From the IMG/VR virus record IMGVR_UViG_3300043640_000023, positions 1 to 22,762 of that record: DNA of 22,762 bases. The stretch is one strand, 5' to 3'. A program made the translations under genes and the position numbers. The notes under the pieces are model-generated. The model saw only the letters and a program-made list of their open reading frames with translations, was not told where the DNA came from and did not search any database. Of the stretch, positions 187 to 17,142 are shown one piece after another. The stretch comes from a virus. Every line of letters starts with the position of its first letter. Position 1 is the stretch's first letter.

Positions 187-1164
187 TTGAACGCCATCAT
201 CGAACCCGTAAAGCTCGACCGCACCCGCTTCCTGGGCGGCACCGACATGGCTGCCCTGTACGGCGTCAGCAAGTGGAAGACGCCGCTGCAAGTGTGGGCA
301 GAAAAGACCCGCCGCGATGCGCACCGCGAGGAAGACCCCGCCAAGATGAAGGTGTTCAACCGCGGTAAGCGCCTTGAGCCGGTCGTGATCGACATGGTGC
401 GCGAGGACTACGGCCTGGAAGTCGTGCGCGTGAACGAGCGCTACCCCCATCCCGATCACAACTTCCTGTCCGTCGAAATCGATTTCGAATGGCGCGTGAC
501 CGAAGAGGCGCTTGCGACCTTCCCTTGGCTGGGCGATCTGGAAATCGGTTCGATCCAGAATGGCGAGGTCAAGACCGTGCACCCGTTCGTCGCACACGAA
601 TGGGGCGACATGGAAACCGACGAAGTGCCGATCTACTACGCGGCCCAGTCCATGACCGGACTGGCCGTCACGGGCCGGCAGGTGTGCCTCTACGCCACGC
701 TGGTGGGCACCGACGATCTGATCTTCTATGCCGTGCAGCGCGACCAGGAAACCATCGACGCCATGATGATCAAGGCGGTGGACTTCTGGACGAACTACGT
801 CATGACGGATACGCCGCCCGACCCGGAGACGTTCGAGGATCTGAAGTTCCTGTACGCGCGCGACAACGGCGAACAGGTCGAAGGCACGCCGGAAGTGCTC
901 GAAAAGCTGGCCGAATTCCGGGCGCTGACCGAAACCGCCAAGGACATAGAAGACCGCCGCGACGTTCTCAAGTTCGACATCCAGGCATTCATGGAGCCGA
1001 ACGCCATCTTGACCGACCACGGCAAGGCAGTGGCCACATGGAAAAGCCAATCGTCTGACCGCCTGGACGGCAAAGAGCTGGCCGAGGCTATGCCGGAAGT
1101 CGCCAAGCAATTCCGCAACATCATCGAAACCCGGGTTTTCCGCCTTAAAGGAACGAAGAAATGA
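187..1164 (+). CDS. YqaJ-type phage exonuclease (recombination nuclease)
   Basis: The 325-residue protein matches the YqaJ viral recombinase family, a lambda-exonuclease-like fold of the PD-(D/E)XK superfamily. These enzymes resect double-stranded DNA ends to give single strands for a RecT/Bet partner. Visible motifs are the N-terminal RTRFLGGTDMAALYGVSKW region (residues 12-30), Glu64 in RLEP, Asp99 in SVEID, the catalytic E-x-K at 127-129 (GEVK), and a Gln-containing helix (AAQSMTG). The start is TTG at 187: GGAG lies 6 nt upstream (177-180), and the next ATG would cut into the conserved GGTDM motif. The stop overlaps the recT start by ATGA, which is typical for an exonuclease/annealase pair. 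The family assignment is firm; activity is inferred. Confidence 0.9.
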   Translation: MNAIIEPVKLDRTRFLGGTDMAALYGVSKWKTPLQVWAEKTRRDAHREEDPAKMKVFNRGKRLEPVVIDMVREDYGLEVVRVNERYPHPDHNFLSVEIDFEWRVTEEALATFPWLGDLEIGSIQNGEVKTVHPFVAHEWGDMETDEVPIYYAAQSMTGLAVTGRQVCLYATLVGTDDLIFYAVQRDQETIDAMMIKAVDFWTNYVMTDTPPDPETFEDLKFLYARDNGEQVEGTPEVLEKLAEFRALTETAKDIEDRRDVLKFDIQAFMEPNAILTDHGKAVATWKSQSSDRLDGKELAEAMPEVAKQFRNIIETRVFRLKGTKK

Positions 1165-2201
1165 GCGCGTCCCAATTGAAAGCCGTAGCCACCGGACAGG
1201 CCGAACAGCAGCGTGTCGCCGACATGAAGCCCAAGGAGAAAATCTCCTACATGCTGGAAAAGCGTAAGGGCGAGATTCAGAAGATGCTGCCGAAGCATCT
1301 TTCGGCCGACCGCCTCTTGAAGGTCGCGCAGATCGCCGCCACCACCACACCGGGCCTAGCGGAATGCGACATCCCGTCCCTGGTGGGCGCCATTGGTCAG
1401 TGCGCGCAGATGGGCTTGGAGCCCAATACCGTACTGGGCCATGCCTATCTCGTCCCCTTCAATACGAAGCGCAAGGATGCCGCCGGCAATGAGCGGTGGG
1501 TGAAGTCGGTGCAGGTAATCGTGGGCTACAAGGGCCTGATAGATCTGGCGCGTCGGTCCGGGCAGATCGTCAGCATTGCCGCGCACGAGGTGTGCAAGAA
1601 CGATAAGTTCGACCTTGTGTATGGGTTGGATGAAAAGCTCGAGCACCGGCCCTCCATGGATGAGCGTGGGGACACCATCGGCTTCTACGCCGTCGCCAAA
1701 CTGGTGGGCGGTGGCCACGCCTTCGAATTCATGTCGGTACATCAGGTGCACGCCATCCGCGATTCCTCGCAGGGCTACCAGCAGGCCAAGAAGTACAAAA
1801 AGGAAGCGGCGCACCCTTGGGGCGCCCACTTCATCGAAATGGGCCGCAAGACGGTTATCCGGCGCCTCGCAAAATTCCTGCCGCTGTCCATCGAATTCCA
1901 GACCGCTACCGTCCTGGATGAAATGGCCAGCCAGGACCGCGATCAGCGCCTTGACGAAAACACCATCGACGGCGATTTCATCTTCGCGCAGGGTGGCGAT
2001 GAGCATGGCGACCAGAACGAAGGGCGTGAACCAGAGCAGATCGGTTACGACCCGGCGCCAGTGTTGGGGAGCATCGCGGCGGCCATGTCTATCGAGGCGC
2101 TGGACCTGATCGGCGACCAGTTGCGCGATGCACCCGACGAGCACTACGACGCGCTCAGCGCCGCGTTTAACGCTCGGCGCGCCCAGTTCCAACCCGAATG
2201 A
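1161..2201 (+). CDS. recT: RecT family single-strand annealing protein
   Basis: The 346-residue protein is a clear RecT homologue. RecT proteins coat single-stranded DNA and promote annealing and strand exchange during phage recombination. The core runs from about residue 30 to 260 and contains typical family stretches: SYMLEKRKGEIQKMLP, LVGAIGQCAQMGLEPN, VQVIVGYKGLIDLARRSG and GRKTVIRRLAKFLPLS. The C-terminal third after about residue 270 is acidic and low in complexity, a region that varies in the family. The start ATG overlaps the exonuclease stop (ATGA, 1161-1164), so the two products are likely made together as an exonuclease/annealase system like lambda Exo-Bet. Confidence 0.95.
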   Translation: MSASQLKAVATGQAEQQRVADMKPKEKISYMLEKRKGEIQKMLPKHLSADRLLKVAQIAATTTPGLAECDIPSLVGAIGQCAQMGLEPNTVLGHAYLVPFNTKRKDAAGNERWVKSVQVIVGYKGLIDLARRSGQIVSIAAHEVCKNDKFDLVYGLDEKLEHRPSMDERGDTIGFYAVAKLVGGGHAFEFMSVHQVHAIRDSSQGYQQAKKYKKEAAHPWGAHFIEMGRKTVIRRLAKFLPLSIEFQTATVLDEMASQDRDQRLDENTIDGDFIFAQGGDEHGDQNEGREPEQIGYDPAPVLGSIAAAMSIEALDLIGDQLRDAPDEHYDALSAAFNARRAQFQPE

Positions 2202-2331: not shown

Positions 2332-2799
2332 ATGTCTCGAATTTCTCCCACCATCGGCCGCATGGTCTATTACTACCCGTCGAATCTGGAAGTCCGGTTC
2401 AGCAAACTGCCCTTCGTGCTGCATGGCGAAGGCCCGCTTTCCGCCAACATCGCGCACGTCTTCAGCGACACCATGGTCAGCCTGTCGGTCATCGATTCCG
2501 ACGGCAATCAGCATGCACGCACGTCCGTTTCGTTCATCCCCGACGACACTCTGCCCGTGCCGGATGGCAATGCCTATGCGACCTGGATGCCGTTCCAGTT
2601 CGAGCAGGTTGCCCAGCAGGGTTTGGCATCGAAGATGGCGCAGAAGCAGCCCGGCGCCCAGTCCCATAATCAGTTCAAGACTGCGCCCACTTCTGGCGAG
2701 CCTGCGCCGTCGCTGTCTGGCGACGTCGGCGGCACCACCCAGACCGCCGATAGCGCTGTCGGTACGGCCGCCGCCGATCCCACCCAACCCGCAGCCTAA
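2332..2799 (+). CDS. Conserved phage protein of unknown function
   Basis: The 155-residue protein begins SRISPTIGRMVYYYP and has a compact N-terminal domain (about 1-95) with alternating hydrophobic residues suggestive of beta strands. A low-complexity Gln/Ala/Thr/Pro tail follows (about 100-155). I recall this N-terminal pattern from uncharacterised proteins of Burkholderiales phages but know no function. The start ATG at 2332 has GGAG 5 nt upstream (2323-2326). An upstream extension in the same frame back to 2128 overlaps recT and looks non-coding. The 130 nt between recT and this gene are GC-rich and I see no clear promoter there. Position next to recT suggests a DNA-metabolism or host-interaction role, but this is a guess. 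Confidence 0.75.
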   Translation: MSRISPTIGRMVYYYPSNLEVRFSKLPFVLHGEGPLSANIAHVFSDTMVSLSVIDSDGNQHARTSVSFIPDDTLPVPDGNAYATWMPFQFEQVAQQGLASKMAQKQPGAQSHNQFKTAPTSGEPAPSLSGDVGGTTQTADSAVGTAAADPTQPAA

Positions 2800-2849
2800 G
2801 CAGCAGCCGGCGGCGCTGTACGGCCGCTGGCCCATCACTGGAGAAACTC

Positions 2850-3191
2850 ATGACGAAAGAAGAATTGCAGGCCGCTGTCACGGTTGCGCGCAAGACGCTG
2901 GCCGACGCCGAGGACGCATTATTGGCCTTCGACGCGCTGCCCGAGAACAACGTGTTCGCATCGCTGTATGACGCTGAGGGTGCGCTTGAAGACCGTTTGC
3001 GCAACGAGGCATTCAAGGACTGCGAGGGCGCGGGCAACTGCGGCGACGACGAATACACGCAGGAATTCATCGTGGACGGCGTGCGTTACGTGGGAACGCT
3101 GTCCGTCGAATACAACCGCCACGACAAGACCTACTACTACATCGACAGCGCCGAGTTCACCTACGCCCCTGTTGATCAACCCGCAGCCTAA
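2850..3191 (+). CDS. Small acidic phage protein, unknown function
   Basis: The 113-residue acidic protein has an N-terminal Ala/Leu-rich helix (about residues 3-35) and a second half rich in Asp, Tyr and Thr that looks like beta strands (VDGVRYVGTLSVEYNRHD). GGAG lies 6 nt before the ATG (2840-2843). It stands alone, separated from the previous gene by 50 nt and followed by the long structured non-coding stretch. No enzymatic motif is visible. A small acidic early protein could be a DNA mimic or inhibitor of a host enzyme, but nothing in the sequence proves this. Confidence 0.7.
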   Translation: MTKEELQAAVTVARKTLADAEDALLAFDALPENNVFASLYDAEGALEDRLRNEAFKDCEGAGNCGDDEYTQEFIVDGVRYVGTLSVEYNRHDKTYYYIDSAEFTYAPVDQPAA

Positions 3192-3234
3192 CCCTAACCG
3201 CGACCTGGGCCGCGCACGCCTAGGGCCATGAAGC

Positions 3235-3354
3235 GAGGCGGTTGAGGTTTCTCTCGGCGGATCAGGGGGAGCCGAAACATCGGTGCAGGCGTGATGGGGG
3301 TGCACACCCTGACCGCCGTAAGTCTTTGGGGTTCGAATCCCCGGCAACCGCCTC
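3235..3354 (+). ncRNA. Cloverleaf-like structured RNA (tRNA-like candidate)
   Basis: A perfect 10-bp stem joins 3235-3244 (GAGGCGGTTG) to 3345-3354 (CAACCGCCTC). Three arms fit between. Arm 2 pairs GTTT 3247-3250 with AAAC 3275-3278, and CGGC 3255-3258 with GCCG 3271-3274. Arm 3 pairs GGCG 3288-3291 with CGCC 3314-3317, and GGGT 3298-3301 with ACCC 3306-3309 around a GCAC loop. Arm 4 pairs GGGG 3328-3331 with CCCC 3339-3342 around TTCGAAT, which is a canonical tRNA T-loop. The T-like arm abuts the closing stem as in tRNA. However, arms 2 and 3 are not normal D and anticodon arms and no anticodon or CCA is evident, so this is not a standard tRNA. Arm 3 has competing pairings (GTGCA with TGCAC). 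Expression is unproven. Confidence 0.45.
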
Positions 3355-3652
3355 TCTTGATGGTGAGCAGTACGCGCAGGCGATGCGCAAGAGACTAGGA
3401 CAGCGCGGAACCGACCACGGCGAGGCATCGCTCACGGTCAAAGGTGGCCCACCTGTAGGGCATGCAACAAGGTTCCGGGACCGTGTAGACGTGGCTGGTA
3501 GTTCCTGCGGGGAGCCACGCGCCTATCGCAACCAACATCTCGCGGCAGCAGGCCGGGTTCGCAGCCGGCCACCATCAATGAGTAAAGCCCGGTACGCAAG
3601 CCGGCAAGCGGGTGCAGAGCCCGCACTACCCAACCACCTGGAGATACCCAGA
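3355..3652 (+). other. Non-coding stretch with consecutive RNA hairpins
   Basis: No convincing gene is seen in these 298 nt. The frame of the downstream gene is open here, but its translation is Arg/Pro-rich and looks like shadow. Several inverted repeats occur in series: CACGGTC 3433-3439 with GACCGTG 3479-3485 (enclosing a smaller GGTG/CACC hairpin), CGTGGCT 3490-3496 with AGCCACG 3513-3519, GGCCGG 3551-3556 with CCGGCC 3565-3570, and GCGGG 3608-3612 with CCCGC 3620-3624. None is followed by a T-run, so they are not simple terminators. They may form the leader of the next gene or one larger RNA together with the cloverleaf upstream. The stretch ends in the GGAG (3640-3643) of the next gene. 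Confidence 0.4.
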
Positions 3653-4174
3653 ATGCAAAACCTGTTCTCGCTGGACCACCAGATCGTCACGCTGAAGGCG
3701 ATCAAGTTGCGCGCCGAATTAAAGGAGGAAAACGGCCTGCTCGATGTAGAACTGTTCTTCGTCGCACGCATGGGCAATGACGCGCTCGTGATGATTGCGC
3801 CCGATCTGCGCTCGCTGCTTTATAAGCGCGGCGAACAGATGACGACGGACAGCGACGAGCCCGGCCTGACCGAGCTTCGCATGCCTGAGCTGGAGGCGCT
3901 GAACATCAAGAAAGAGATTGTCGGCGCCGACGTGACGCTGCATTACGGTGTGGGCGAATCGAACGGTCGAAGCACGGATATCTCGCTGCCAGACACGAAG
4001 AAAATCGATACCTTCTATGTTTTGCCGATGCAGGGAGGGACCAACACCATCGGATGGCGCGTGTGCTGCAAGCCTCAGTTTGAACAGCTTGGCGACATTG
4101 GTCGGGTGCTGGGGCGTGAGGCGCCGCTGACCATCGTGACGCCCGAGGACAAGCAGGGTTCGTTGGGGGTATGA
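3653..4174 (+). CDS. Early phage protein of unknown function
   Basis: The 173-residue protein begins MQNLFSLDHQIVTLKAIKLR. It is predicted mainly as mixed beta/alpha, with an acidic central region (TDSDEPGLTELRMPELEAL) and a GGTNTIGWRVCCKP segment near residue 135. The start ATG at 3653 has GGAG 9 nt upstream. The same frame is open for about 410 nt further upstream, but that part is the structured non-coding stretch. The product follows the recombination genes, so a single-strand-binding or recombination accessory role is conceivable, but I see no OB-fold signature strong enough to call it. The last codon overlaps a tiny ORF by ATGA. Confidence 0.7.
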   Translation: MQNLFSLDHQIVTLKAIKLRAELKEENGLLDVELFFVARMGNDALVMIAPDLRSLLYKRGEQMTTDSDEPGLTELRMPELEALNIKKEIVGADVTLHYGVGESNGRSTDISLPDTKKIDTFYVLPMQGGTNTIGWRVCCKPQFEQLGDIGRVLGREAPLTIVTPEDKQGSLGV

Positions 4175-4605: not shown

Positions 4606-5789
4606 CCAGTCCCAACGAAAAGCAGGTTCTGACGGACCCCGAAATCATGGCCCTCTTGCCGGGCGCGGTGCGGCTACCGCCTGGATGGAAGCAGACCGCC
4701 CGCGCCATCGAGTGCGCCGTCACCGAGCGCATTGGCGGCATGCCGGCGACGGAGTGGCAGGATCAATTCCACTATCTCGCGGTCGGCTTGGTTGACGATG
4801 CAAATCGAGGTAAGGAGGCGCGCCAGAAGGCTTTCGACGCGCTGATGGAGCATGGAAAGGTACGCATCCTGCCTGACGCCAGCGAGGCCGGGGCGGTGGC
4901 GTGGCATGTCGTGGACACCGCCCAGGGGAAGACTTTCATCACGCAAAGCGCGATGGTGGCGGGGAAAGCGGTCGAAGGCGGCGTAAAGGTTCGGCCATTG
5001 GTATATGGCGATTCCGCCCCATCGGAAGCGCCCGACGTAACGCCAGGGGAGTCCAGGGATATTATGGGCCGCGAGGCATACGATGAGGAAGCCGATATGG
5101 CCGAGGTTGGCCGGGCGCTGATGAAGGCTATAGAGACGCACGCACCGAAAGGCTGGAATCCCAATGACTGCCCCAGCGAGATTGTGGGCGACTTGCGCAA
5201 CATGCTGGACGAAGCCAAGGCAGTTCCATCGGATGCGCCCGCGCAGCAGGGAATTCCGTTTGCTGGGTACGATACGAACTTCAATCCCGGCAGTAACCCC
5301 GAAAATCCACAAGAGGAACCCGAACCGGCTGCGCAGGGCGATGAGCGGGCAGCGGTAGATGCGTGGGTAGCAACGATGCGCGAATTCGCTCACCCGCCAA
5401 ACGTGGACGAAATCATGGCTTTCAGAGAGGGCTTTCAGGTCGCTCGCCAGCCGTCCGCCGCAGCGAGTGCGGAACTTCGCATCGGCGTGAGCGCCACCGA
5501 GCATGGCGCGACAGTCTGCATCATGCAGCCGCATGCGGACGGCAGCGCCACCGTGATCTATTCCGCAACGCATCCTACTGGCGATAGCATGGGCAGCGCC
5601 GCCCTGGTTGACCGCCAGAAGCGTGCGCAGGATGGGGCGGACGTATCCGAAATCTTGCGGGAAATAAAGCGGATTTGCCGGGAAAAGCCCACTGCCACGA
5701 ATGCTTATGGCATCAAATCGTGGGAAAAAATAGAAAGGCTCATCCGCGTCGCCCTTGCCGCCGCCAAGCCGGAAGGGGGTGCGGCATGA
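4602..5789 (+). CDS. Modular early phage protein of unknown function
   Basis: The 395-residue hydrophilic protein appears to be built of several short modules. These are an N-terminal region with PPGWKQTARAIECAVTERIG (residues about 27-46), a central part with EVGRALMKAIETHAPKGWNP and IVGDLRNMLDEAK, a linker rich in Pro, Glu and Asn (about 225-250), a helical segment AVDAWVATMREFAHPPNVDE, and a C-terminal region with EILREIKRICREKP. No catalytic motif, membrane segment or signal peptide is seen. Such mosaic hypothetical proteins are common in Burkholderiales phages and vary by module exchange. ATGA overlaps on both sides place it firmly in the operon. Confidence 0.75.
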   Translation: MTSPNEKQVLTDPEIMALLPGAVRLPPGWKQTARAIECAVTERIGGMPATEWQDQFHYLAVGLVDDANRGKEARQKAFDALMEHGKVRILPDASEAGAVAWHVVDTAQGKTFITQSAMVAGKAVEGGVKVRPLVYGDSAPSEAPDVTPGESRDIMGREAYDEEADMAEVGRALMKAIETHAPKGWNPNDCPSEIVGDLRNMLDEAKAVPSDAPAQQGIPFAGYDTNFNPGSNPENPQEEPEPAAQGDERAAVDAWVATMREFAHPPNVDEIMAFREGFQVARQPSAAASAELRIGVSATEHGATVCIMQPHADGSATVIYSATHPTGDSMGSAALVDRQKRAQDGADVSEILREIKRICREKPTATNAYGIKSWEKIERLIRVALAAAKPEGGAA

Positions 5790-7431: not shown

Positions 7432-7694
7432 CAATCGAGAAGGCCGCCGGCGAGACTGGCTATACTGCCGTCGCCATCCGCAGCAAGATCGCTGAAGGCG
7501 TGTGGCCGGAGAGCGACGTTTGGGTAAAAGCCCCGGACGGGCGGATCCTGATCGATATCGAGGGGTATAACGAATGGGCAAGCAGTACGATGGCGTTCGG
7601 GCGGCTTCAGAGTCGACAATCGAAATCGACTTCTACTATGCCGGTACCCGTTGCCGGGAAAGGGTCCGGCTCGAGCCCACCCCCGCTAATCTGA
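7413..7694 (+). CDS. xis: Excisionase (Xis-like, MerR-type winged helix)
   Basis: The 93-residue protein begins VRYLTIEKAAGETGYTAVAIR, then IAEGVWPESDVWVKAPDGR and ILIDIEGYNEWA. This is the winged-helix layout of phage excisionases: helix-turn-helix in residues 5-25, then a wing with the DGRI-type strand near residue 45. Excisionase bends attachment-site arms and directs the integrase toward excision. The conserved domain ends near residue 55. The Ser/Pro-rich C-terminal part (about 55-93) overlaps the integrase start by 122 nt in another frame, much as lambda xis overlaps int, and may be poorly constrained. Position directly before int supports the call. Confidence 0.8.
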   Translation: MPVRYLTIEKAAGETGYTAVAIRSKIAEGVWPESDVWVKAPDGRILIDIEGYNEWASSTMAFGRLQSRQSKSTSTMPVPVAGKGSGSSPPPLI

Positions 7695-8773
7695 AGCGGG
7701 CTGCGAATCACCGGGCCGGCGTGCTGGATGCCATCGCCCGCGGCACATTCGATTATGCAACCACCTTCCCGGATAGTAAGAAAGCGGCCAAGTTCACCCG
7801 GAAGGCCGCCCTCGGCACCGTGGGCCAATATCTGGAATCCTGGGTGGATAGCAAGGCCCCCACCATCAAGACCAGCACCGCCGAAGGGTACCGGAAGGCC
7901 ATAAGCGGGCGCTTGGTGCCCTCCTTGGGTGCCATTGGCTTGGCAGCCCTCAAGCGCCAGGAGGTGCGCGCCATGTGCGAGGCCATGGCCGTGTCCAATA
8001 AGCGGATTGCCAATGTCCTGTCGGTGCTGCGGACCGCCCTGGATGACGCCGTGGGCGACCAACTGATAGATGAAAACCCCATTGCCCATTGGACGTACGC
8101 CAGAAATGAAGCGCCCAAGGAAGAGGATGACGTGGACCCGTTTACCGCCGCTGAGCAGGATATGATCCTCAAGGCAGCGGACGGACAGGGGCGCAATTTC
8201 ATCCAGTTCGCCCTATGGACCGGCCTGCGCACCTCGGAATTGGTGGGATTGCGCTGGGATGACATCGACTGGCAGCGGGGCGAAATCAGGGTCCGGCGAG
8301 CCACCACACAGGCTGCCAAGGGCACAGCGGAGAAGCCGAAGACCGTCAGCAGCAAGCGCGCCGTCAAGCTGTTGGCGAAGGCGCGACAGGCGCTGGAAGC
8401 CCAGAAATCCCACACGCTCCTGCTGAACGGGCAGATTTTCATGAATCCCAGGACGGGTGAGCCCTGGACGGGCGACCAGCCTATCCGCAAGACGATGTGG
8501 GAGCCGGCGCTCAAGCGGGCCAAGGTCCGGTACCGGATTCCGTATCAAACGCGCCACACGTACGCCTCGATGATGCTGTCGGCCGGCGAGCATCCTATGT
8601 GGGTAGCCAACCAGATGGGCCACGCCGATTGGGGGATGATTCGGACCCGCTACGGGCGCTGGATGCCGGACGCCCAGCCCGACGCTGGCTCCAAGGCGGA
8701 AGCCCTATACGGCCCGGCCGATGGTCAGCTTTTAGCCAACATCTCTCCGAAGAACCGCATGAATACTGGATAG
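7574..8773 (+). CDS. int: Tyrosine integrase, tmRNA-targeting
   Basis: The 399-residue protein is a tyrosine recombinase that would integrate the phage at the tmRNA gene. The N-terminus (about 5-70, with IEIDFYYAGTRCRERVRLEP) matches the arm-binding domain common in proteobacterial phage integrases. A SAM-like core-binding domain follows (about 80-175) and a catalytic domain (about 185-380). Catalytic residues visible are Arg219 (WTGLRTSEL), a Lys near 256 (PKTVSSKR), Tyr324-x-x-Arg327 (PYQTRHTYAS; Tyr in place of the first His, as in many relatives), His350 (QMGH) and nucleophile Tyr360 (RYGRW). The gene starts inside xis. Its stop codon touches the putative attP core, so gene and site form a self-contained module. 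Confidence 0.93.
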   Translation: MGKQYDGVRAASESTIEIDFYYAGTRCRERVRLEPTPANLKRAANHRAGVLDAIARGTFDYATTFPDSKKAAKFTRKAALGTVGQYLESWVDSKAPTIKTSTAEGYRKAISGRLVPSLGAIGLAALKRQEVRAMCEAMAVSNKRIANVLSVLRTALDDAVGDQLIDENPIAHWTYARNEAPKEEDDVDPFTAAEQDMILKAADGQGRNFIQFALWTGLRTSELVGLRWDDIDWQRGEIRVRRATTQAAKGTAEKPKTVSSKRAVKLLAKARQALEAQKSHTLLLNGQIFMNPRTGEPWTGDQPIRKTMWEPALKRAKVRYRIPYQTRHTYASMMLSAGEHPMWVANQMGHADWGMIRTRYGRWMPDAQPDAGSKAEALYGPADGQLLANISPKNRMNTG

Positions 8774-16023: not shown

Positions 16024-17142
16024 TTACTGATATTCCACACGCGAGGAAGCATCGCCGTACATCGAGCCATTGGCCAGATTCGACGGTGCGCCATTTTGCG
16101 GTGCGGCGCCGTATCCTGATTGCGATTGTTGATTCAACAAGTAGTTCGAAAGCGCATTTGTGCCGGTACCGATGGCTTGGTTTGCGGCATTCGCTTGCCC
16201 GACCGTCCCCGCCGCTGCGGCGTTCCCGGCCTGCAAATCATTGCTGCCGACCTGATTGGCGTAATTATTTCCCACGCCCGCCAATGCCGATGCTGACGAT
16301 TGGCCAATACCCGTCACCGCCGCCAGCTTGTTGAACAGGTTGTTCTGCGACGTGTTGTAGGAGTTGAAGCCAGTCGTATAGTCGTTGTTGTAGCGGTTGT
16401 AGGCCTGCTGGTATTCCTGGGATGCTGACCCCTGGTTGTAGTCGTTCAGGGCCTTCAGGGCGCGGCCGGAGTTAAGGCCGCCAGTTGATGCAGCAGCCTG
16501 CTTGATCTGCTGATCGCCCTGGTCGAGCCGGAACTGATAGCCTGGGTCTACTTGGAAGTCGTCAGCGCTGAACGGCTTGTAGGCTTGGTACGGGTTCAGC
16601 AGGGAACCGAAGTCGGCATTCCCTGGTTGTCCGGCCTGCCCTTGCTGCGAAACCGCTTGGGACTGCTGCGCCAATTGGTCGTTGATGGCCTTCTGTAAAC
16701 CGGCCTCATCGATAACCTGCTCGGACTGCGGCGCTTGGTAGTCAGGGTTCGGCACGTAGCCATACGACGTTCCCGCGTCTCCGCCGCCCCATTGGCTGTA
16801 GATGAACTGTGGAACATCCGGCGTCGTCGTTTTGGTAGACGTGTATTGGGGTAGCAACTGCTGACGTATCTGGTCGGCAGTCTGCTGCGGGGCGACCGGC
16901 GCACCATTGGCACTTCCGCCAAGGCCGAGCCGGTACAGCAGCGCATTCAGCCCGGCATTGCCCGCCTGTAGATACGGCTGGAAATTCTGCGTGTTCTGAT
17001 CGTAAATCTGCTTCTGGAGGGCGTTTGCATCCTCGGCGGACTGCTCCTGCTGATCGGACGCCTTACCGGCCGCGCCCGAGGATATGGCGGCACCAGCGAC
17101 CCCCGAGACGGCAATCCCTGCTCCTACTGCGGCAGCTACCAT
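16024..17142 (-). CDS. DNA transfer protein, P22 gp7-like ejection protein
   Basis: The 372-residue protein begins with a Gly/Ala-rich hydrophobic segment (residues about 2-27, VGAGIAVSGVAGAAISSGAA). A Gln/Asn-rich body follows. A conserved core (about 190-290) reads FSADDFQVDPGYQFRLDQGD, AAASTGGLNSGRALKALNDY and YNRYNNDYTTGFNSYN and ends NLFNKLAAVTGIGQ. This core is typical of phage DNA transfer proteins, and the hydrophobic N-terminus resembles the cleaved leader of P22 gp7; cleavage here is speculative. It is the first of three ejection-type genes and follows the GNAT gene by one nucleotide. Confidence 0.8.
   Translation of the reverse strand: MVAAAVGAGIAVSGVAGAAISSGAAGKASDQQEQSAEDANALQKQIYDQNTQNFQPYLQAGNAGLNALLYRLGLGGSANGAPVAPQQTADQIRQQLLPQYTSTKTTTPDVPQFIYSQWGGGDAGTSYGYVPNPDYQAPQSEQVIDEAGLQKAINDQLAQQSQAVSQQGQAGQPGNADFGSLLNPYQAYKPFSADDFQVDPGYQFRLDQGDQQIKQAAASTGGLNSGRALKALNDYNQGSASQEYQQAYNRYNNDYTTGFNSYNTSQNNLFNKLAAVTGIGQSSASALAGVGNNYANQVGSNDLQAGNAAAAGTVGQANAANQAIGTGTNALSNYLLNQQSQSGYGAAPQNGAPSNLANGSMYGDASSRVEYQ

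Follow-up and report, generated by a model that had tools for sequence, protein, structure and literature searches.

What does a phage encode between two small genes where the sequence can be drawn as a tRNA cloverleaf? The question arises at positions 3235-3354 of the window, i.e., the whole 22,762-nt stretch of viral DNA that was analysed (IMG/VR record IMGVR_UViG_3300043640_000023), for which the original prediction offered a tRNA mimic, a processing signal in the early transcript or a decayed tRNA. Our analysis shows that this sequence is one arm of a larger, modular structured RNA of about 420 nt, extending approximately from 3204 to 3624.

Results

The source is a temperate phage, since an integrase gene (7574-8773) is present together with YqaJ-like and RecT-like genes, the latter two located upstream of the RNA. 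The RNA takes up the interval 3192-3652, flanked by two small genes downstream of recT (Table 1), and no promoter-like or terminator-like site was seen in 2700-3800 of the window. No relatives of the proteins encoded at 2128-2799 and 3653-4174 were found in the viral contigs searched. The stretch 3242-3652 is non-coding, because it lacks a gene-like codon-position G+C content (0.71/0.59/0.60 vs 0.61/0.37/0.76 downstream) and nearly every frame has stops in the related RNA regions. An open reading frame (3242-4174) opens at TTG 3242, stays open across the RNA and continues in frame as the gene that starts at 3653, which may mislead gene callers.

Table 1. Positions of the RNA modules and neighbouring genes in the window
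Feature	Sequence	Positions	Strand	Remark
RecT-like annealing protein gene		1161-2201	+	Upstream, operon context
Head hairpin	CCTGGGC-CGCGCAC-GCCTAGG	3204-3224	+	Read directly; same layout in PHB04
S1, outer 5' strand of arm	CCATGAAG	3226-3233	+	Complementary to S2 except for one mismatch
Arm: 10-bp stem, long central arm (3251-3322) and T-arm-like hairpin		3235-3354	+	
Perfect 10-bp stem	GAGGCGGTTG / CAACCGCCTC	3235-3244 / 3345-3354	+	From sequence
T-arm-like hairpin of arm	GGGG-TTCGAAT-CCCC	3328-3342	+	Abuts 3' strand of 10-bp stem
S2, shared strand	CTTGATGGTG	3356-3365	+	3' strand of arm and 5' acceptor strand of domain
tRNA-like domain: S2, D-arm-like hairpin, variable insert, T-arm-like hairpin, S3		3357-3578	+	
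D-arm-like hairpin of domain	GCGC-AGGCGAT-GCGC	3374-3388	+	Aligned to H1 of model R3
T-arm-like hairpin of domain	GGCCGG-GTTCGCAG-CCGGCC	3551-3570	+	Abuts S3; aligned to H2 of model R3
S3, 3' acceptor strand	CACCATCAA	3570-3578	+	9 bp, perfect, with S2 (3357-3365)
Conserved core, two hairpins (52 nt)		3577-3628	+	Shared with other phages
Core hairpin 1	CCGG-TACGCAAG-CCGG	3589-3604	+	
Core hairpin 2	GCGGG-TGCAGAG-CCCGC	3608-3624	+	
Downstream gene, 173 aa		3653-4174	+	No family match; start 25 nt past core

The predicted closing stem and the T-like arm set against it are both present, and CCA is indeed absent from 3235-3354. The stem is the longest Watson-Crick stem within 3192-3655, and the 120-nt fold reaches -59.3 kcal/mol (z = -3.15), a value equalled by none of 200 dinucleotide shuffles. 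A descriptor combining T-stem, T-loop and an abutting acceptor matched once in the 464-nt region, compared with 0.05 matches expected from shuffles, and the TTCGAAT loop with its 10-bp acceptor is the only descriptor match of that kind on the + strand of the window. The stem itself stood; its supposed end at 3235/3354 did not, as pairing is prolonged outward by 3226-3233/3356-3363, the whole forming an inverted repeat of 19 nt (3226-3244/3345-3363) with 89% complementarity. The two further arms, presumed to be the D and anticodon arms, fold instead as the single long central arm, and the view of the element as a self-contained unit gave way to the wider extent set by its conserved neighbours. 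The sequence 3235-3354 is the inner part of an arm closed by S1 and S2 and lies upstream of a tRNA-like domain. Among the relatives found, none could be aligned to it at the nucleotide level, and a search with the exact T-arm and stem pattern found nothing; Bordetella phage PHB04 has the same two-tier layout in another sequence. A likeness of the arms to integron attC sites was dropped on reading, as neither the strand order nor the box sequence agrees with such sites. A permuted tRNA-like arrangement of hairpin, S1, arm and S2, on the pattern of the permuted tmRNA of PHB04, was also considered.

By the usual tests the element is not a tRNA. ARAGORN predicted none, and the Rfam comparison that the original prediction had proposed was run and gave no family match, RF00005 included. 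An anticodon arm with a 7-nt loop is absent, its place being taken by the long central arm or, in the domain, by a long insert.

The only match to a known phage, limited to 3565-3624, was to PHB04, where it falls within an RNA cluster. In that phage (L002), tRNA-Met, tRNA-Asn and tRNA-Pro genes and a permuted tmRNA (tag ANDDYIRAAA) lie at 1305-2619, outside its annotated features. Its head hairpin, CCTGGGC-CGCGTAAGT-GCCCAGG at about 2162-2185, differs in the stem by one G-C to G-U change. Pattern scans for the core added an AT-rich phage (L004), a Caballeronia contig (L044) and the contigs L053 and L055-L058, and BLAST with the L044 region led to the Burkholderia Lessievirus phages CSP3, BcepIL02, DC1 and BcepMigl, in which the RNA is located between the DUF2303 gene and the SSB gene. 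Hypothetical gp12 genes are placed on the minus strand over or just after this RNA (L050:2697-2963, L052:2670-2951, L051:2467-2556), and the gp12 genes annotated in BcepIL02, BcepMigl and DC1 may be spurious. A model of the core further identified L060 and a genome that carries the RNA as two prophage copies. These two copies of the same array (L097 and L106; G153:C1, 1271786-1274837 and 1322531-1325582) are about 51 kb apart, each followed by tRNA-Met. A lone core (L054:1556-1607) occupies the short interval that separates two genes, with a start codon immediately after it; its surroundings look like a structural region.

The core consensus is CCGG-TACRCAAR-CCGG followed by GCKGG-TGCRGAG-CCMGC, and the loops of both hairpins in the window fit it. 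Compensatory changes from C-G to A-U and from G-C to U-A occur; in the alignment of 11 sequences 96.7% of cells are paired and three pairs show double-sided changes, a result reached by 5 of 500 shuffles. Model R1 scores the window core at 70.2 bits, the window being part of its training set. Matches to a loose pattern (TACGCAAG..AAGC..GCAGAGC) were mostly due to chance and were discarded by sequence context. Burkholderiaceae matches to the core model at 25-30 bits were likewise set aside, L101 because it read as coding and the others by score, and an order-wide search gave no further relatives.

The two-hairpin head motif was found in 40 viral contigs. In the form CCGC-AAGATTGA-GCGG, GCTGG-AACTCGTAA-CCAGC it stands alone in many AT-rich phage contigs (L059-L095), usually preceded by a stop codon and followed by a T-rich terminator-like hairpin (e.g., L061:525-573); some of these contigs measure 200-340 kb, with L085 at 340 kb. 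Several members share the order head, S1, arm, S2, domain, S3 and core, often followed by a second S1'-arm'-S2'-domain' series. The S words match each other inside one phage and differ from phage to phage. About 60 nt within one arm are near-identical between PHB04 (L002:2859-2935) and the metagenomic phage L053, where the arm lies on the minus strand between head (4916-4964) and core (4719-4770), with differing S words, which suggests that arms are exchanged as cassettes. In L056 the array is followed, at a distance of about 1.5 kb, by an int-alpA RNA (RF02996; 8520-8593). Judged by these comparisons, unrelated phages share the modules, and covariation is seen in the stems of acceptor, core and head.

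The tRNA-like domain is widespread. With L060 as the BLAST query, 177 phage records gave a match to some part of it, and the arrangement of S2, hairpin, hairpin and S3 is found repeatedly among them, with HK620, HK633, mEp460 and Klebsiella phages as carriers; a pattern scan of viral contigs gave at least 120 matches. Relatives are present in more than 100 phages and prophages; the copy of HK620 (about 16094-16187 of NC_002730), located in the late leader between pR'/qut and tQ, is carried by 108 E. coli genomes. The upstream neighbours include repressors (10/40) and Q-like antiterminators (6/40), and a holin or endolysin gene often follows. Many relatives hold a single domain of about 126 nt; the variable insert has a median of 74 nt and no conserved sequence, and CCA is present in 5 of 59 related domains. 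No Rfam family matched the domain family. In the same slot, canonical D-arm/T-arm structures occur in L044 (813-885), L097 (1430-1503), L004 and L057, and real tRNAs or a permuted tmRNA stand beside the RNA in PHB04, L044, L056, L058 and L097.

Across 35 aligned examples, 98.2% of cells in the acceptor, D-like, T-like and loop-loop helices are paired vs 85.6% after shuffling. Double-sided changes affect 12 pairs and 86 cells (0/500 shuffles as high), most of them in the acceptor, for whose pairing the sequences had partly been chosen; the D-like stem is invariant because the search pattern fixed it. A cleaner test, in which S3 was picked by the T-like hairpin alone, gave 359 of 371 S2:S3 pairs over seven positions, compared with 256 in shuffled data (maximum 285). 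Pairing falls sharply beyond pair 7 and is chance-like by position 9; as read from sequence, the acceptor of the family is 7 bp long, the length of a tRNA acceptor. Changes in the loop-loop helix are few: L189 (one aligned sequence), L056 (GCCGA:TCGGC) and the window, where GCGA of the D-arm-like loop is complementary to TCGC of the T-arm-like loop in 3551-3570.

Covariance model R3, built from the 35 phage sequences with the window left out of training, has its best window match at exactly 3357-3578, boundaries that agree with those already deduced from the core. The match is weak (13.6 bits, E 0.014), with a chance-like match elsewhere at 12.4 bits, and the window copy has a longer insert and additional bases ahead of the D-like hairpin. 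The window domain is thus probably a diverged member of the phage family.

In the window, either S1 or S3 can pair with S2, hence the arm and the acceptor stem are mutually exclusive. Within-unit duplex energies of S1:S2 and S2:S3 were better than all 20000 reassignments, and S3 pairs the 7-mer of S2 more strongly than S1 does in 13/13 hand-listed units; the S words in these energy comparisons were chosen manually, and several of the units are related to one another. Folding 3203-3626 without kissing loops favours the arm state (-185.5 vs -180.7 kcal/mol, P(S1:S2) 0.99), and S3 would displace S1 only with the help of kinetics, the elbow or a protein. In the wider family a complementary run of at least 10 is found in 23 of 84 cases (8.6 expected). 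A strand switch is possible for the arrays and is not a family-wide rule, because S1 is limited to a subset.

Discussion

The structure and the family are well supported. From the structure and its genomic place we infer that the RNA is recognised by host tRNA enzymes, RNase P in the first instance. A precedent among phage leader RNAs is the C4 precursor of P1 and P7, on which RNase P acts (Hartmann 1995, cited in PMC11143913). Taken together, we propose a leader RNA of tRNA-like modules that is read by these enzymes and possibly gated by strand exchange, and put the probability of this reading at roughly 40%. During transcription, the S1:S2 arm, with 3235-3354 inside it, would form first and occupy S2; S3, once made, would displace the imperfect S1 and complete the tRNA-like fold, which would then be recognised by host tRNA enzymes, above all by RNase P at the 5' end of S2. 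The outcome could be cutting of the phage transcript or the release of a stable tRNA-like RNA that occupies host tRNA enzymes, with the element serving as a leader or intergenic RNA of the recombination operon. The earlier idea of a tRNA mimic or processing signal thus survives in part: the family does have tRNA-like domains, with canonical D- and T-arms in the same slot of relatives, but the conserved domain is the adjoining 3357-3578, and 3235-3354 competes for its acceptor strand.

The likeness to tRNA and to the tRNA-like domain of tmRNA lies in the 7-bp acceptor of the relatives, the 5-bp T-arm-like hairpin stacked on it, the 4-bp D-arm-like hairpin with an 8-nt loop containing GG, and the canonical T-loops that replace the slot in some phages. 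Unlike tRNA (RF00005), the phage domain stays below detection by ARAGORN and Rfam, has no anticodon arm and mostly no CCA, builds its elbow as a loop-loop helix and contains a variable insert. Phage T4 has the stable RNAs C and D, non-tRNA RNAs of unknown function within its tRNA cluster. In P22-like late operons (phage L, Sf6), tRNA genes stand at the 5' end between Q and the lysis genes (PMC8022706), the same genomic slot as that of the HK620 relative; those score as true tRNAs, whereas the phage domains do not. The M3 RNA of phi80, an RNase P substrate, was rejected as a counterpart, being homologous to oop and encoded on the opposite strand close to cII; phi80 also gave no match to R3.

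A cis-acting transcription element is the best of the other explanations, although we consider it unlikely. The core and head would act on RNA polymerase by antitermination or pausing, the tRNA-like parts being spacers. The put sites of HK022 act on RNA polymerase in this manner. Relatives at operon starts, after repressor or Q-like genes and ahead of holin or endolysin genes, would suit such a role, as would the position of the HK620 copy; moreover, core and head each consist of two tandem hairpins with conserved loops, and heads in AT-rich contigs directly precede T-rich terminator-like hairpins. On the other hand, the window has no terminator-like or promoter-like site around the RNA, and a covarying acceptor, an elbow pairing and an abutting T-arm would be unneeded.

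Debris of a tRNA array would be a still weaker explanation. Here the modules would be recombination-shuffled remnants and no switch would exist; S1 would once have served a lost upstream domain as its 3' acceptor strand. Canonical tRNA features without usable anticodon arms in L044, L097 and L057, the adjacent real tRNAs and the very different 3' modules that Lessievirus phages carry after the same head are in keeping with it, but the compensatory covariation is strong across many phages and the core loops are near-identical between AT-rich and GC-rich phages. The same covariation, strong in the acceptor stems, is why a decayed tRNA, one of the three original suggestions, is disfavoured for the family.

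Slightly less probable again is a source of trans-acting small RNA like C4 (presumably RF01695, an antisense RNA of phages P1 and P7) or the prophage Pas RNAs, with the tRNA-like fold merely setting the ends. The variable insert is not conserved, no intrinsic terminator follows the element in the window, and Rfam gave no C4 match in the window or relatives and no STnc100 match; nor was target pairing of the C4 kind seen. Precedents for such processing exist: the prophage RNA PasA arises by processing of a longer transcript, PasD is located close to Q genes (PMC13192938), and the C4 precursor, likewise a phage leader RNA, is an RNase P substrate according to the passage of PMC11143913 that cites Hartmann 1995.

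The least probable reading, a large ornate RNA of the GOLLD or ROOL kind (which we take to be RF02032 and RF03087) assembling by loop-loop contacts, has in its favour a large, structured, phage-borne RNA near tRNA genes with complementary loops, but there is no GOLLD or ROOL match by sequence or covariance in the window or relatives, and the element is modular, varies widely in module number and length among phages and can be as small as the single-domain relatives. GOLLD and ROOL themselves form cages and are often located close to tRNA islands (PMC12286853).

Returning to the leader RNA of tRNA-like modules, no description of core, head or tRNA-like domain was found in Rfam 15 or in the open-access literature searched. 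Mimicry of tRNA as such is known; the present family, in which one strand is shared between arm and acceptor, looks like a novel form of it. A broader proposal, which we regard as doubtful, is that of an undescribed class of leader RNAs in many tailed phages, in which an upstream arm contests the acceptor strand of tRNA-mimic domains and transcription times their display to host tRNA enzymes or tRNA-targeting defences.

If the family does mimic tRNA, it would provide a testable case of viral tRNA mimicry in bacteria that includes well-studied lambdoid phages, and its strong covariation supplies ready-made mutants for such tests. The finding bears on the cutting of phage transcripts, on the clustering of tRNA-like sequences between Q and the lysis genes, and on the encounter of phages with tRNA-targeting defence.
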